From Actinomycetota bacterium (GTDB lineage Bacteria; Actinomycetota; Actinomycetes; Actinomycetales; Kineosporiaceae), in contig JAUPKJ010000080.1 in the NCBI GenBank assembly GCA_030837505.1, positions 1 to 33,770 of the forward strand: a stretch of 33,770 bases of DNA, given 5' to 3'. This document shows positions 11,698-16,532 of this stretch, piece after piece; the stretch's first letter is position 1; every line of letters starts with the position of its first letter. Made by a program: the position numbers and the translations under genes. The notes beneath the pieces were generated by a model. That model saw only the letters and a list, made by a program, of their open reading frames with translations. It was not told where the DNA came from and did no database searches.

Positions 11698-12900
11698 ATG
11701 AAGTGGAACATGACACCGGTGCCTACGGGGCTGGGAAACAGCAACCACGAGAATTCCCGAACAGCGGGGACACAAGCGGCCACCATCGCGTTCACCCAGT
11801 TGGGCGACGAACCCGCTGCCCTGGTCATCGTGTACTCCTCGGCCCGCTACGACCTCGAACAGCTGCTCTCCGGCGTCAGGAGCGTCACCGGCCCGACCCC
11901 CCTCATCGGCGCCACCACCCACGGACACTTCTTCGACGGACAGTTCGTGGCGCCCGATACCGGAGTCGTGGTCCTGGTGATCTCCCAGGGCTCGTACACC
12001 TTCTCCTTCGGATCGGCCACCGGGATGGTGGGCGACCCGGTCGGAACGGGCAAGGAACTCGCCCGGGCCGCAAAATCCTCGGCCCGGTGGGCAGAGCCCC
12101 CGCCCCATGCCGTTCTGCTCCTGCTTTCCTGCGGCCGGACCGGTGACCAACAACAGTTGCTCAACGGGATCCACCGCGTCCTGGGAGCCGCCGTCCCGGT
12201 CGTCGGCGGCGCCTCCGCCGTCGACCGCCCCCAACTCCCCACCGCCGTCTTCCACGACGACCGTGTTCTGCACGACTCGGCGGTCGGAGTGCTCATCGGC
12301 TCCCACGAACCCCTGAGGGTCGTGCGCGGACACGGCTGGCGCGCCCACGGCCTGCCCCAGCTCGTGACTGATACCGAAGGCAACCTCGTGCGGTCCATCT
12401 CCGGACGCCCCGCCTATGACGTGGTCGAGGAAGCTCTTCGGGAGACCGCCGCCGAACGCGGCGAGACCCCGGGCGAAGAGGGCAGCGACGGCGTCGTGCG
12501 GCTCGGCGGCCGAGGACGCTGTTTCGGCATCATCGAACCCGACGGCTCTCATCTGTTGCGCGGAGGCATCCTCACCGAGGACCGACAGATCCAGACCTGG
12601 GCACCTCTACCGGCCTATTCGTCCATCCAGATGATGTCCTGCACCCAGGACTCCCTGCTCGACGTCTGCGACCAGATCGCCCAGGAGGCCACGGCCGGTC
12701 CCGACGCCGGGCTCCTCCTGGTCTTCGGCTGCGTCGCCCGCTGCGAGATCCTCGGATCCCGTGTGACGGAGGAGGCCACCCGGCTCCAGAACGCCGCAGG
12801 CCAGGTCCGCACCATCGGTTTCTACACCTACGGAGAGTTCGCCCGGACCGTCAGCGCCCTCGGCTTCCACAACGCCACCATCACCGGCCTGGCCCTGTGA
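11698..12900 (+). CDS. FIST-domain sensory protein
   Basis: A 400-residue soluble protein with FIST_N (about 25-225) followed by FIST_C (about 235-395). Marks of the family are LVIVYSSARYDLEQLL, the PLIGATTHGHF strand-turn, VPVVGGASAVD, AVGVLIGS and the C-terminal LLVFGCVARCEILG...GFYTYGEF. FIST proteins are proposed to bind small ligands such as amino acids and usually sit beside signalling enzymes, including cyclic-di-GMP enzymes and chemoreceptors. Here the divergent neighbour is a GGDEF-EAL protein, which supports a sensor-output relationship (inference). The ribosome site before ATG 11698 is weak; ATG 11710 is an alternative. Confidence 0.9.
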   Translation: MKWNMTPVPTGLGNSNHENSRTAGTQAATIAFTQLGDEPAALVIVYSSARYDLEQLLSGVRSVTGPTPLIGATTHGHFFDGQFVAPDTGVVVLVISQGSYTFSFGSATGMVGDPVGTGKELARAAKSSARWAEPPPHAVLLLLSCGRTGDQQQLLNGIHRVLGAAVPVVGGASAVDRPQLPTAVFHDDRVLHDSAVGVLIGSHEPLRVVRGHGWRAHGLPQLVTDTEGNLVRSISGRPAYDVVEEALRETAAERGETPGEEGSDGVVRLGGRGRCFGIIEPDGSHLLRGGILTEDRQIQTWAPLPAYSSIQMMSCTQDSLLDVCDQIAQEATAGPDAGLLLVFGCVARCEILGSRVTEEATRLQNAAGQVRTIGFYTYGEFARTVSALGFHNATITGLAL

Positions 12901-12930: not shown

Positions 12931-14355
12931 TCAGCGCCGCACCAGGACCAGAGCGTCGCTGACCTTGCGTTCTTCGGCTCCGCTGGGCCGGTTGACCGCC
13001 TGCCCCCCCACCACCATCGTGGTGGAACCACCGCCGTCGAGGTTCACGGCGTCGCGCAGGCCCAACGCCCGCAGAACCTCGGCGCACTCCCGCAACGTCG
13101 CCCCCACGCTCGTCGTCCTGCGCCCGTCGATGGTCACCAGTTTGAGGACTCCGTCCGGTGTGACCCCGACAGCCGTACGAGGATGGCGATCGAAAAAACT
13201 GCTCGTGTAACCGGGGACGACGGCCTTGCCACCCTCGAGCAACTGGTATCGCCCCGAGACCCCGAACAGCCCCGAGTTCAACGGGATCCGTTTACCGCTG
13301 CTGTCCATCAGGACACTCGTTCGAGTGAAGCACCCCTTGCCGACCTTCAACAACGCAGCGCTGCGGGACCCCGTCGCCTGCAGCGAACTCTGCCCGGCCG
13401 CGAGCTGCACCCCGCGGGTGGCGGACCGTCGGATCACGCAGTTCTTCGCATCCAGGAGAAGCTCGGCTCCCGGCCCCGACGGCGTCCGGGTCGTGAACTC
13501 CGGGGTGAGCAACGAGACGTCCCCCGGCTGAGAACACTTCGTCTGGTCGGTCTGGCCCGCGCAGGCCGCCGGGACCACGGGCGGATGGTTGACGAACTCC
13601 AGTCGCAGCTGGGCTCCGGTCTCACGATGGCGCATCGTGCCCGACCATCGCAGACGGTCCATCCGAACAACCTTGTTCGTCCTCGAGTCCATCAAGAAAT
13701 CGATCTCGTACGGCTGGCCGGACGGCTGGCTGAGCACCTGCCCCCGATAGATCGCCAGCCCCACGGGATCACCGGGATACTTCTTGCTGTCCCCGAGGGC
13801 GAAAAAGGACGCGTTGACCCCCGCCAGGGCCCCGGCCGCGCGCACGATTCCGGTGGTCGTCTCCGTCTTCGCCAGTGCACGGCCGAACCCCGCCTCCAAC
13901 CGGATCTGCGACTGCCGGGGGTCAAGAGCCAGCACACCGACCCTCCACGGGCCCCGGGCCGTGGTACCGATCTCCCGGGAAGCGGCAGGGTCCGTGCCCC
14001 GGACGATGGTGGTCACGGTGAGCCCGGGCGCGACCTGTCGGGTGGTCCGGGTCTCTGGCAGGTCGGGCTCGCCCAGGGGCAGTCCGGCAGGTTTTCGCTG
14101 CGCCGTCCGGCCGGTCTCGTCCACAGATCGTGACGGGGCCCTCTCGGCCCCGAAGACAACACCCGCGACCCCACAAAAAAGGACGATCAGTACGGTACGG
14201 CGCACCCGGGGGATCTGAAGGGCCCGCAGGGCCAGGGTCCGCAGCGCCAGGGTGCGCAGGACGCCGACACGCAGCGAGGCCGCGCAAAAAACGGCGATAC
14301 GCAGGAGCGGTGCGTGCAGGCCGCGGCGCGGGGGCATACGGGATCCAAAAGGCAT
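12931..14355 (-). CDS. Phosphodiester glycosidase (NAGPA/DUF2233) family exported protein
   Basis: A 474-residue protein. The N-terminal 70 residues are basic with an unusual LRTLALRTLALRAL repeat, followed by one hydrophobic segment (VRRTVLIVLFCGVAGVVFG) that should act as an anchor. The rest, probably extracytoplasmic, carries NAGPA-family hallmarks: GVNASFFALGD, HPRTAVGVTPDG and the C-terminal NLDGGGSTTMVVGG. In mammals this fold uncovers mannose-6-phosphate. Bacterial members act on cell-wall or exopolysaccharide phosphodiesters, so a cell-envelope glycan role is inferred. The start is uncertain because no good ribosome site precedes ATG 14355; ATG 14337 (MPPRRGL) is an alternative. Confidence 0.82.
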   Translation of the reverse strand: MPFGSRMPPRRGLHAPLLRIAVFCAASLRVGVLRTLALRTLALRALQIPRVRRTVLIVLFCGVAGVVFGAERAPSRSVDETGRTAQRKPAGLPLGEPDLPETRTTRQVAPGLTVTTIVRGTDPAASREIGTTARGPWRVGVLALDPRQSQIRLEAGFGRALAKTETTTGIVRAAGALAGVNASFFALGDSKKYPGDPVGLAIYRGQVLSQPSGQPYEIDFLMDSRTNKVVRMDRLRWSGTMRHRETGAQLRLEFVNHPPVVPAACAGQTDQTKCSQPGDVSLLTPEFTTRTPSGPGAELLLDAKNCVIRRSATRGVQLAAGQSSLQATGSRSAALLKVGKGCFTRTSVLMDSSGKRIPLNSGLFGVSGRYQLLEGGKAVVPGYTSSFFDRHPRTAVGVTPDGVLKLVTIDGRRTTSVGATLRECAEVLRALGLRDAVNLDGGGSTTMVVGGQAVNRPSGAEERKVSDALVLVRR

Positions 14356-14706
14356 CGAGGCAGGTCCGGCGGAACCTTACCGGACGGTAGGAGCGGTCCG
14401 GTGATACAGAGGACGCCACTCATCATCAGGATCAACAGAGGGTGTCGGACCGCTTCCGGCGCGTTCTTCTCCAACGTCCTCGAACGGCCTGCCTCGAACA
14501 GCCCTTCCCGAACAGCCTGTCCCGAACAGCGGGAGGCGGCTCCTGCCGACGAGGGGAGCACAGAAGGTCCCCCAGTGAACTACCGAATCAATATAATCAA
14601 TGTTGATCTTGATTTATTTAAGATTCCAGACTTGCGGTCTCAACTTCACTGAGGTACAACAGACGTAGGCCGGTCGAAGGGCCGGGGAGGAAACAGGAGG
14701 GACGGC
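14356..14706. promoter_or_regulatory. Divergent intergenic region with an AT-rich island of ATCAA/TTGAT elements
   Basis: This 351-bp gap has no convincing gene. At 14583-14626 the base composition drops sharply to AT-rich. Within it ATCAA occurs at 14587-14591 and 14596-14600, and TTGAT at 14603-14607 and 14609-14613, so the pairs face each other. TATAAT (14592-14597) is a perfect -10 hexamer but has no good -35 at 16-18 bp. The layout suggests a promoter overlapped by operator half-sites for the DUF2089 operon. AGGAGG (14695-14700) is the ribosome site of the next gene. Confidence 0.5.
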
Positions 14707-15069
14707 ATGGACTGGCAGGAGCTGACCCGGCTCACGCAGGGGCAGGAGGTCGTCGTCGAACGGGTTCGTCTGGTGGAGCAGGGGATCACGATCGAAGGAC
14801 AGTTCGAGCTGCCCCAGCTGGCGGGGTTGACCGTCGAGGAGCAGGTCTTCGTGACCGCCTTCGTTCGCTGCCACGGATCGATCAAGGAAATGGAACGGAT
14901 CTTCGGCATCAGTTACCCCACGGTGAAGGCCCGCCTCAACCGCATCGCCGAACAGCTGGAGTTCGTCCAGACGGATCCGGCGCCCTCCCGGGCAGAGATC
15001 ATCGACCGGCTCCGTTGCGGGGAGATCAGTGCCGCGCAGGCCGCCGAGGAACTGGAGGGCCTGCGATGA
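14707..15069 (+). CDS. DUF2089-family predicted DNA-binding protein
   Basis: A 120-residue protein; AGGAGG lies about 6 nt before the ATG. The sequence from QFELPQLAGLTVEEQVFVTAFVRCHGSIKEMERIFGISYPTVKARLNRIAEQL is the DUF2089 core, with a helix-turn-helix (SIKEMERIFGISYPTVKARLNRI) resembling sigma-70 region 4. The usual N-terminal zinc ribbon of longer members is missing. The C-terminal RAEIIDRLRCGEISAAQAAEELEGLR is a SHOCT-like two-helix motif also seen at the N-terminus of the third gene. First gene of a three-gene operon, overlapping the next by ATGA. It probably autoregulates through the AT-rich island upstream (inference). Confidence 0.85.
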   Translation: MDWQELTRLTQGQEVVVERVRLVEQGITIEGQFELPQLAGLTVEEQVFVTAFVRCHGSIKEMERIFGISYPTVKARLNRIAEQLEFVQTDPAPSRAEIIDRLRCGEISAAQAAEELEGLR

Positions 15070-15326
15070 TCCCCGTGCTGCTCATCCTGCGGATCCGCTC
15101 GGAGGGGGGCCGGACCGTCCGCCTCTGGTTGCCCTTGATCCTGCTGTGGGTGCTGCTGCTCCCGATCGCGTTGCCAGTACTGATCGTCCTGTGTCTCATC
15201 GCCCTGGCCCGCGGCGGCAATCCGCTGCGGGTTCCGGTGGCCGGCTGGCAGATCCTGCGGGGTCTGAGGGGGCTGGTCATCGACATCGACGAACCGGACT
15301 CCACCATCTACCTGAAGATCGTTTAA
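15066..15326 (+). CDS. Small membrane protein of the DUF2089/SHOCT-like operon
   Basis: An 86-residue protein. The start ATG overlaps the stop of the DUF2089 gene (ATGA), which implies translational coupling. A basic/polar N-terminus (LRIRSEGGRTVRLW) precedes one long hydrophobic hairpin (LPLILLWVLLLPIALPVLIVLCLIALA). The C-terminal tail (LVIDIDEPDSTIYLKIV) is beta-like. No known enzyme motif. Equivalent small membrane proteins accompany DUF2089 and SHOCT-like genes in other Gram-positive bacteria, so a role in envelope stress sensing is plausible but inferred. Confidence 0.8.
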   Translation: MIPVLLILRIRSEGGRTVRLWLPLILLWVLLLPIALPVLIVLCLIALARGGNPLRVPVAGWQILRGLRGLVIDIDEPDSTIYLKIV

Positions 15327-15355
15327 GGACCGTTCCCGGAGAGGTGACACAAATC

Positions 15356-15787
15356 ATGAACGAACAGCGACAGCAGATCCTCCACATGCTCGCCGAGGGG
15401 AAAATCACTGCTCAGGAGGCTGACCGCCTGCTGCTGGCACTCCAGGACAGCAGCCCGGCCGGGGCCGGCGCAGGGGAGAGACCCAGCGGATCCAAGGCTG
15501 CTCCCCGTTACCTGAGGGTCGTCGTGGACGAGGGTGAGGAGGGAGGCACCAGGGTCAACATCCGTGTGCCACTGCAATTGATCAGGGCCGGGGTCAAGCT
15601 GGCCACTCTCCTGCCGGAGTCGGCCCGCAGCCCTGTCGATCAGGCTCTGTCCGAAGCGGGTGTTCCCTTCGACCTGAGCCGGATCAAAGCCTCGGAGGTC
15701 GAAGAACTGGTCGAGTTCCTCGCCGATCTGAGCGTGGACATCGACGACAAGGACGAGTCGGTGAAGGTACGCATCTTCGCCGAGTGA
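15356..15787 (+). CDS. SHOCT-like domain protein
   Basis: A 143-residue soluble protein. ATG 15356 is preceded by GGAGAGG about 11 nt upstream. The N-terminal QQILHMLAEGKITAQEADRLLLALQ is a SHOCT-like helical hairpin, as in YvlB/LiaX-type envelope stress proteins. A Gly/Ala linker follows, then a domain with PRYLRVVVDEGEEGGTRVNIRVPLQLIRAGVKLATLLPE and acidic strands to the end (SVDIDDKDESVKVRIFAE). The SHOCT-like motif recurs at the C-terminus of the DUF2089 protein, so the two may share a partner. Last gene of the operon, followed by a strong terminator. Confidence 0.83.
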   Translation: MNEQRQQILHMLAEGKITAQEADRLLLALQDSSPAGAGAGERPSGSKAAPRYLRVVVDEGEEGGTRVNIRVPLQLIRAGVKLATLLPESARSPVDQALSEAGVPFDLSRIKASEVEELVEFLADLSVDIDDKDESVKVRIFAE

Positions 15788-15798
15788 GTTCCCCTCCT

Positions 15799-15827
15799 CG
15801 CCGGTCGCTCGTTGGGGGCGACCGGCG
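15799..15827. terminator. Bidirectional terminator hairpin
   Basis: Perfect 10-bp stem CGCCGGTCGC / GCGACCGGCG with a 9-nt loop, filling the gap between the convergent SHOCT-like gene and pentapeptide-repeat gene. Confidence 0.85.
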
Positions 15828-16532
15828 TCAGGGGGCTCCGGCCTCTTGTTCCTCGATGGTTATCCCCAGGGCACCGGCCAAGCTGTGGGCCAGATCGGCC
15901 AGGTCGTAGGAGTCCACGACAGCCCCGCGCAGGGAATGGACACCGGCGATACCGCCGAGGGAACACCGTTGGAAACGAGTGCCGGTCGTGACGGCGTTCG
16001 AGAACTGTGCGCCGGACAGGTCACAGTCCTCGAAACGGACTCCGCGCAGGTCCGCGTTCTGGAAGTCCGCCTGCCGCAGATCGCAGCCGGTGAACAGCAC
16101 CCGGGTGAACCGTGCGAACCGGAACGCGGACATGTCCGCCCGGCAACCCTCCCAACGCACGTCCTTGAGCGGACCGCCGCCCCAGGACAGCCCGGTCGCC
16201 CGGCAGCTCGTGACCGAGGTTCGCACCATCGAGGAGTCCTGGGCCTGCAGGTTCGCCAGGTCGCACCCGATCAGCTCGCAGTCGGACAGCGACACCCGAT
16301 CGAAACGCCCCGGGCCGAACCTGCACGTGGCCAGACGCGACTCCGCGATGTCCGCGTTCACGACGTCCCGCCCGGACAGGTCCAGGTCGACGAAGGACAG
16401 ACAGGCCAGAGCAGCCTCCTCGACGAGGTCGTCCCGGGGCAGTTCTGCGTCCGACAGAGGACGTAACGTCTTCGGGGGCAACGGATCGCGTGTGTCCGGC
16501 GCCCCCCTGCGGGGCGCTGTACCACGGCGCAT
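15828..16532 (-). CDS. Pentapeptide-repeat protein
   Basis: A 234-residue protein with AAGGAG 8 nt upstream of ATG 16532. From about residue 45 to 205 it is built from five-residue A(D/N)LXX-type repeats (for example NADIAESRLATCRF, CDLRQADFQNADLRGVRFEDCDLSGAQFSNA), which fold as a right-handed quadrilateral beta-helix. Unusually many repeat positions hold Cys. The C-terminal helix region (SYDLADLAHSLAGALGITIEEQ) may be a dimer or cap element. Some family members mimic DNA and protect gyrase from quinolones (Qnr, MfpA), but most have no known role. No function is assigned. Confidence 0.9.
   Translation of the reverse strand: MRRGTAPRRGAPDTRDPLPPKTLRPLSDAELPRDDLVEEAALACLSFVDLDLSGRDVVNADIAESRLATCRFGPGRFDRVSLSDCELIGCDLANLQAQDSSMVRTSVTSCRATGLSWGGGPLKDVRWEGCRADMSAFRFARFTRVLFTGCDLRQADFQNADLRGVRFEDCDLSGAQFSNAVTTGTRFQRCSLGGIAGVHSLRGAVVDSYDLADLAHSLAGALGITIEEQEAGAP

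Follow-up and report, generated by a model that had tools for sequence, protein, structure and literature searches.

The AT-rich island in front of a three-gene operon (P1-P2-P3) is, as judged by comparison with related loci, a conserved operator. The window in which it lies, that is, the whole stretch of 33,770 nucleotides analysed here, comes from a member of the Kineosporiaceae. The comparison shows that a specific and usually paired site belongs to this operon and also, among relatives, to paralogues of P3. We think it fairly probable that P1, a DUF2089-type protein, binds these sites and autoregulates the operon, presumably as a repressor, and that P2 and P3 tie the operon to the membrane.

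The operon occupies positions 14707-15787 of the plus strand according to the ORF calls, in agreement with a preliminary description of this DNA (Table 1).

Table 1. Features of the operon and of its flanking regions, in window coordinates
Feature	Position	Strand	Description
Operator site O1	14587..14601	+	ATCAATATAATCAAT; 17.6 bits; centre at about -73; contains TATAAT
Operator site O2	14608..14622	-	CTTAAATAAATCAAG; 24.1 bits; centre at about -52
Predicted -35 box	14632..14637	+	TTGCGG; 17 bp before TACAAC; like element in relatives
Possible degenerate third site	14639..14653		CTCAACTTCACTGAG; located 31 bp from O2 within the -35/-10 spacer; weak
Predicted -10 box	14655..14660	+	TACAAC; predicted transcription start near 14667
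Shine-Dalgarno-like sequence	14695..14700	+	AGGAGG
P1	14707..15069	+	120 aa; DUF2089-type helix-turn-helix protein
P2	15066..15326	+	86-aa predicted membrane protein; ATGA overlap with P1 stop
P3	15356..15787	+	143 aa; SHOCT-like protein
Hairpin 3' of P3	15799..15827		GC-rich, 12-bp stem without a T run; may be a terminator separating convergent genes

The island (14583-14626) has a GC content of 25% in a window of 67% GC and includes the window's 40-mer of lowest GC content (0.175; the lowest elsewhere is 0.35). It carries ATCAA at 14587 and 14596, TTGAT at 14603 and 14609, and TATAAT at 14592, the sole copy of that hexamer on either strand of the window; within the window, the 45-bp stretches with two ATCAA and two TTGAT elements on the plus strand are only those that cover the island. 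The AT-richness, the paired elements and the TATAAT had been pointed out before and are upheld, but the role then given to TATAAT, as the centre of a promoter, is not, the hexamer being inside site O1.

The operator was modelled as a 15-bp dyad (CTTAAGAAAATYAAG, pattern YTTRA-N5-TYAAR), using a PWM learned from 67 actinobacterial upstream regions from which the window and its sister locus were held out (consensus CTTAAGAAAATCAAG, 26 bits). This held-out PWM ranks O2 best of 67512 window positions and O1 second, the next non-overlapping position reaching 8.2 bits, and O2 is also the single match of its own genome to the consensus with at most one mismatch. The possible third site scores only -0.8 bits, and the sister locus has a similar site of 0.2 bits at equal spacing. 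Of the 81 upstream regions compared, 67 of which served as training rows and are thus in-sample, 79 contain a site of at least 15 bits and 74 exceed all 60 of their own dinucleotide shuffles. No operator site was found in locus L133, and the best in L015 has only 11 bits. L133 stands alone among the actinobacterial P1 orthologues compared in lacking an operator. Residues 1-13 are absent from its match, which suggests a replaced 5' end of the gene. Single sites carry little evidential weight beyond Actinomycetota, where at least one of 60 shuffles reaches the best score in 6 of 12 loci.

A second site of at least 8 bits was found at 54 of the 81 loci, and here the spacing is informative: 21 bp in 26 cases, 30 bp in 3, 31 bp in 23 and another value in 2, so that 52 of the 54 pairs are two or three helical turns apart. 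As training used only one site per locus, the spacing constitutes independent evidence. In a tree of P1, the window groups with its sister in a supported clade (100/97), and two other clades comprise 26 rows mostly of the 31-bp type and 40 rows mostly of the 21-bp type; many of the remaining forks lack resolution.

The site is also specific. In 271,058 bp from 23 loci, all 33 PWM hits of at least 12 bits fall within 160 bp upstream of P1, and they represent all 23 loci, whereas among 33 loci that encode distant DUF2089 proteins, 32 have no site of 15 bits. The exception among these 33, L035 (GC content 57%), encodes a distant DUF2089 protein (31% identity) with hits of 28.3 and 22.3 bits at 1442 and 1639, around the gene. 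Self-control of the operon, as the preliminary description had proposed, is thus well supported by comparison: the operator is kept in P1 orthologues, is missing from nearly all distant DUF2089 loci and recurs before unlinked P3 paralogues (see below). A conserved and specific site lies beside the regulator's own promoter, as in an autoregulated operator-promoter unit.

A search of ten genomes for the consensus with up to two mismatches gave 25 matches, against 5 for the reversed pattern. Eight of the 25 are P1 operators, and all four matches with at most one mismatch are upstream of P1; the pattern is strict, missing the P1 operators of 3 of the 10 genomes (G001, G982 and G419). Among the 17 matches elsewhere (again to be set against 5 for the reversed pattern), 2 precede SHOCT-like genes and 15 are at other places, with two mismatches; none of these 15 has a partner site of at least 8 bits within 60 bp. 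The window's own genome has one other match (two mismatches; one for the reversed pattern), which lies inside an ORF read by eye.

The predicted promoter of the window, TTGCGG-17-TACAAC, belongs to a widespread type: TTG-N3-N16..18-TANAN[CTA] is found in the 130 bp ahead of P1 at 61 of the 82 loci, compared with 2 of 717 downstream control slices. These conserved boxes start 40 and 63 bp downstream of TATAAT, and with that hexamer taken up by O1 the TATAAT-centred promoter of the earlier account is abandoned. Taken as a -10 box, TATAAT (14592-14597) was rejected on further grounds: no TTG-like box was seen by eye 17 bp upstream, and the hexamer is absent from the sister locus. Relative to the predicted starts, a site centre falls at exactly -52 in 46 of the 61 loci with a promoter call (the best site in 38, the second site in 8). 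The commonest centres of second sites are -21, -31/-30 and -28; the window and its sister have theirs at -73. P1 would consequently cover the core promoter of many relatives. In one clade the -35 box overlaps an operator site, so the promoter and operator calls there are not fully independent.

A separate observation is that 37 of the 82 loci (L044-L049, L077 and L079-L112), all within the 40-row clade of the P1 tree, look leaderless. Each has a further in-frame start codon, located 15 nt ahead of the one for M-D-W, and this upstream start is itself preceded at 5-9 nt (7 nt in 30 of them) by a TANNN[CT] box. The window is unlike this clade, with a leader of 40 nt.

The assignment of P1 to DUF2089 is clear (PF09862, 71.6 bits, cut-off 33.4), and all 17 members of the P1 alignment match this family at E <= 1. 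The helix-turn-helix covers residues 41-86 and the C-terminal SHOCT-like hairpin residues ~93-118, while residues 12-38 give only a weak match and appear to be a cysteine-free zinc-ribbon remnant: the score against the zinc ribbon PF22747 (13.5 bits) does not reach the cut-off of 27.6, and cysteine is absent from residues 1-40 in all 82 close orthologues. The SHOCT-like hairpin had been placed at the C-terminus of P1 and the N-terminus of P3. The C-terminus of the window's P1 alone has no SHOCT-like match in Pfam, and the window's P1 is not among the 12 of 17 alignment members that match PF22746 (SHOCT-like_DUF2089-C) at E <= 1; residues 3-30 of P3 reach 32.9 bits with this model (cut-off 27). 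Comparison of a profile of P1 C-termini with one of P3 N-termini by hhalign gave Prob 93.8, E 1.7e-7 and a score of 31.6, while 50 column shuffles reach 15.6 at most. By these profiles the two hairpins are homologous, in line with the earlier placement; the link itself is already known, being implicit in the name of the Pfam model. Searches by sequence for solved relatives yielded nothing convincing for P1 (best E 0.22) or P3 (best E 0.066).

That a small membrane protein separates P1 and P3 is likewise confirmed, as P2 has a hydropathy peak of 3.13 over 19 residues. It has no Pfam match, and its model (pLDDT 67.8, low) consists of a beta hairpin, a long hydrophobic helix, a helix and a beta hairpin. 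The model of P3 (pLDDT 73.7) shows the SHOCT hairpin and two beta hairpins around helices. Its second domain, residues 52-142 (beta-beta-helices-beta-beta), has no Pfam match, and the structure has no confident match in the PDB: Foldseek found none at E <= 0.001 (best 0.38), and the best matches by VIA-align are SPAK/OSR1 C-terminal domains with Z 3.2. Strands and helices are predicted to succeed one another in the same order in P2 (15066-15326) and the second domain of P3 (15509-15781), which gives P2 the look of a membrane form of this domain, and tblastn searches with P2 meet P3 genes in L043 (E 0.003), L144 (0.006) and L208 (4e-4), each in a small database. We regard this as a lead and do not claim homology, which the hhalign result does not prove (Prob 2.1 with P 0.023, against a best Prob of 1.1 in 30 column shuffles).

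Close P1 orthologues, defined by E 1e-30 or better, have a patchy distribution. They occur in 2 of 297 genomes of the window's own order (read from E-values), in 59 of 345 of another actinobacterial order, and in 5 of 35 and 2 of 197 of two further orders. A scan of genome contigs gave 17 loci, from Glycomyces, Streptomyces sulfonofaciens and Actinomadura logoneensis and from MAGs labelled Latescibacterota, Zixiibacteriota, Gemmatimonadetes, Dehalococcoidia and others. Three loci from MAGs labelled Rhodothermales and Gemmatimonadetes (L012, L013 and L014) are near-identical to the Latescibacterota loci in the P1 tree, and may represent mis-binned contigs or a recent transfer. In the resulting comparison set of 82 distinct loci, P3 was found in 79, and two of the three without it, L005 and L016, are loci that end nearby. 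The 79 P3-bearing loci yielded a P2 ORF in 74 cases, and it starts with the 4-base overlap in 72 of these. As it was not found in the other 5, P2 is apparently not always needed. Loci of the Latescibacterota type have an extra gene between P2 and P3, which in L007, the sole one checked, encodes a SHOCT-Toastrack protein.

The operator is not confined to the operon. The 25 genomes with P1 contain 28 P3 matches, of which 3 are unlinked to the operon (L202, L207 and L208, in G1033, G1017 and G831). All three have a site between -35 and -10 (21.2, 23.9 and 26.7 bits), and two have a 13-14-bit partner site 31 bp away. Both of these paired promoters fit the pattern (TTGCGG or TTGACG-17-TACAAA), and TTGACT and TACTAA were read by eye in G831. 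The two consensus matches before SHOCT-like genes mentioned above are a site pair 31 bp apart that precedes an unlinked P3 paralogue (L150) and, in G1072, a site upstream of a SHOCT-like DUF1707 gene (L230/L152); among the DUF1707 loci fetched from three genomes, 1 of 30 has a site of at least 12 bits within ~600 bp upstream. The sites before unlinked P3 paralogues and one DUF1707 gene suggest that relatives possess a small SHOCT-like regulon. The unlinked P3 genes might descend from earlier duplications of the operon and have kept its promoter. In the window's genome, which has one P3 and no DUF1707 match, this operon alone was found to carry the operator.

We favour a mechanism where P1 dimers would bind the YTTRA-N5-TYAAR dyads of the island, with two dimers placed two helical turns apart just upstream of the -35 box TTGCGG, so that bound P1 would keep transcription of the operon low. 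In relatives, the same sites would control the unlinked P3 paralogues too. P2 would reside in the membrane with P3 below it, and upon envelope disturbance P3 could pull P1 off the DNA via the common SHOCT-like hairpin. A role in envelope stress, suspected from the outset, is reasonable to infer. Hints as to the signal come from published membrane-anchoring and PSP-like predictions and from ABC exporter or DUF1707 genes downstream in relatives.

A point contrary to repression is that the good sites of the window are both upstream of the -35 box (-52 and -73), a location equally compatible with activation, and a fixed site position of -52 is more typical of activators. P1 might then be an activator or dual regulator, with the dimer at -52 touching RNA polymerase and the second site tuning or shutting the promoter, and 46 of the 61 loci with a predicted promoter indeed keep the -52 centre, even as the position of the second site varies (-21, about -30, or -73). 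We consider this unlikely, while giving it serious weight: the two large actinobacterial clades have the second site on the -35 box or in the spacer, where a bound protein would normally block the polymerase, and one unlinked P3 promoter carries the spacer site alone. Still more speculative, and in our view quite unlikely, is a kinase-free membrane thermostat in which a zinc-free DUF2089 protein, held at a fixed position of -52, would contact RNA polymerase. The sign of control of a small SHOCT-like regulon would be set by a second dimer at a distance of 21 or 31 bp, and a SHOCT-SHOCT exchange between P1 on the DNA and P3/P2 on the membrane side would be the switch.

Two further readings deny P1 a role at the island. 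An AT-rich stretch directly upstream of a -35 box, where the alpha C-terminal domains of RNA polymerase bind, might be a mere UP element or a patch for a nucleoid protein such as Lsr2. We hold this to be very improbable: the island carries a sequence-specific 26-bit dyad, paired at 21 or 30/31 bp, with zero hits of at least 12 bits outside operator regions in 271 kb and missing from all but one of the 33 distant DUF2089 loci. Alternatively, the operator could belong to another regulator, P1 acting elsewhere, as the link between P1 and the site is one of co-occurrence, and the 15 of 25 consensus matches at other two-mismatch places, against 5 for the reversed pattern, leave room for further sites. 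None of those 15 places has a partner site, and wherever pairs were found they accompany P1 operons or P3 genes, so that we hold this reading, too, to be very improbable. Binding and autoregulation by P1, probably in the sense of repression, is the reading that we retain.

Gene sets of this kind have been predicted before, and the present one is a variant. Operons of DUF2089, SHOCT and Toastrack genes have been proposed as PSP-like contexts, and SHOCT-like domains are predicted to anchor proteins at the inner membrane face (Ravi et al. 2024, PMC11237479, accessible text). The four-gene DUF2089/Toastrack/SHOCT-like context described there likewise has a DUF2089 helix-turn-helix protein with a SHOCT-like C-terminus beside SHOCT-like and membrane proteins, and our relative L007 shares its SHOCT-Toastrack gene. 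The window differs in that P1-P3 lack Toastrack, PspC and LiaI-LiaF-TM (none of these, nor PspA, has a Pfam match in P1-P3 or in five other scanned neighbour proteins) and in that P1 lacks the zinc-ribbon cysteines. Unlike here, no operator is given for the DUF2089 context in the accessible text of that paper. The enterocin DD14 locus offers another parallel, by description and gene order alone: in the part of PMC7332713 available, the list of genes in this bacteriocin locus has an 89-aa DUF2089 protein (ORF C, function given as unknown) directly followed by a 90-aa membrane protein (ORF D).

The DUF1707 proteins of actinobacteria (PF08044) are SHOCT-like too, but they are encoded by a separate gene, which the window's genome does not have. 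The YvlB-type SHOCT-Toastrack proteins of B. subtilis and LiaX have an N-terminal SHOCT-like hairpin and are presumed to lie beneath the membrane; P3 is alike in its hairpin and differs in its second domain, for which Pfam and the PDB gave no confident counterpart. The preliminary remark that such modules are rarely studied fits the sparse mention of DUF2089 in the literature searched. A DNA target of DUF2089 proteins was not found there (partial texts), nor were the operator letters TTAAGAAAATCAAG / TTAAGAAAATTAAG; the same holds for the operator as such and for its geometry, for a cysteine-free P1 and for the leaderless-looking clade, with subscription papers and supplements outside the scope of the search. 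DUF2089 is still listed as a family of unknown function, and the role of the SHOCT-like hairpin has so far been predicted, as membrane anchoring (PMC11237479, accessible text). For a putative regulator of genes suspected to act in membrane stress, there is now a concrete sequence as predicted target, a paired operator conserved far beyond the window's own family, and P3 is named as the partner through which a signal could pass. The held-out operator, its fixed geometry and the extra predicted targets make a vague stress-module prediction cheaply testable.

Beyond P3, no neighbour gene is general, and ABC exporter and DUF1707 genes occur in a minority of contexts; the ORF caller used was crude and picks shadow frames in GC-rich DNA. 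An ABC ATPase gene starts downstream of P3 in 6 of 24 contexts (one of them short), with a likely seventh, and DUF1707 genes follow P3 in 5 of 24 (L004, L166, L173, L176 and L177), the families having been checked in L002 and L004 only and DUF1707 by Pfam in L004. The ABC genes, on the same strand 3' of P3 in L002, L164, L166, L170, L173 and L177 (L176 likely), resemble those of daunorubicin exporters; the best NCBIfam match in L002 is drrA with 285 bits, below the cut-off of 312. The window operon has neither gene downstream. It is preceded by genes for a FIST-domain protein (11698-12900, plus strand) and a NAGPA-type phosphodiester glycosidase (12931-14355, minus strand). On the other side, a pentapeptide-repeat gene (15828-16532, minus strand) is convergent with the operon across the strong hairpin 3' of P3 (region 15785-15845 folds at -40 kcal/mol, z -3.86), and its product has a distant likeness to Qnr/MfpA, far under the NCBIfam cut-offs.
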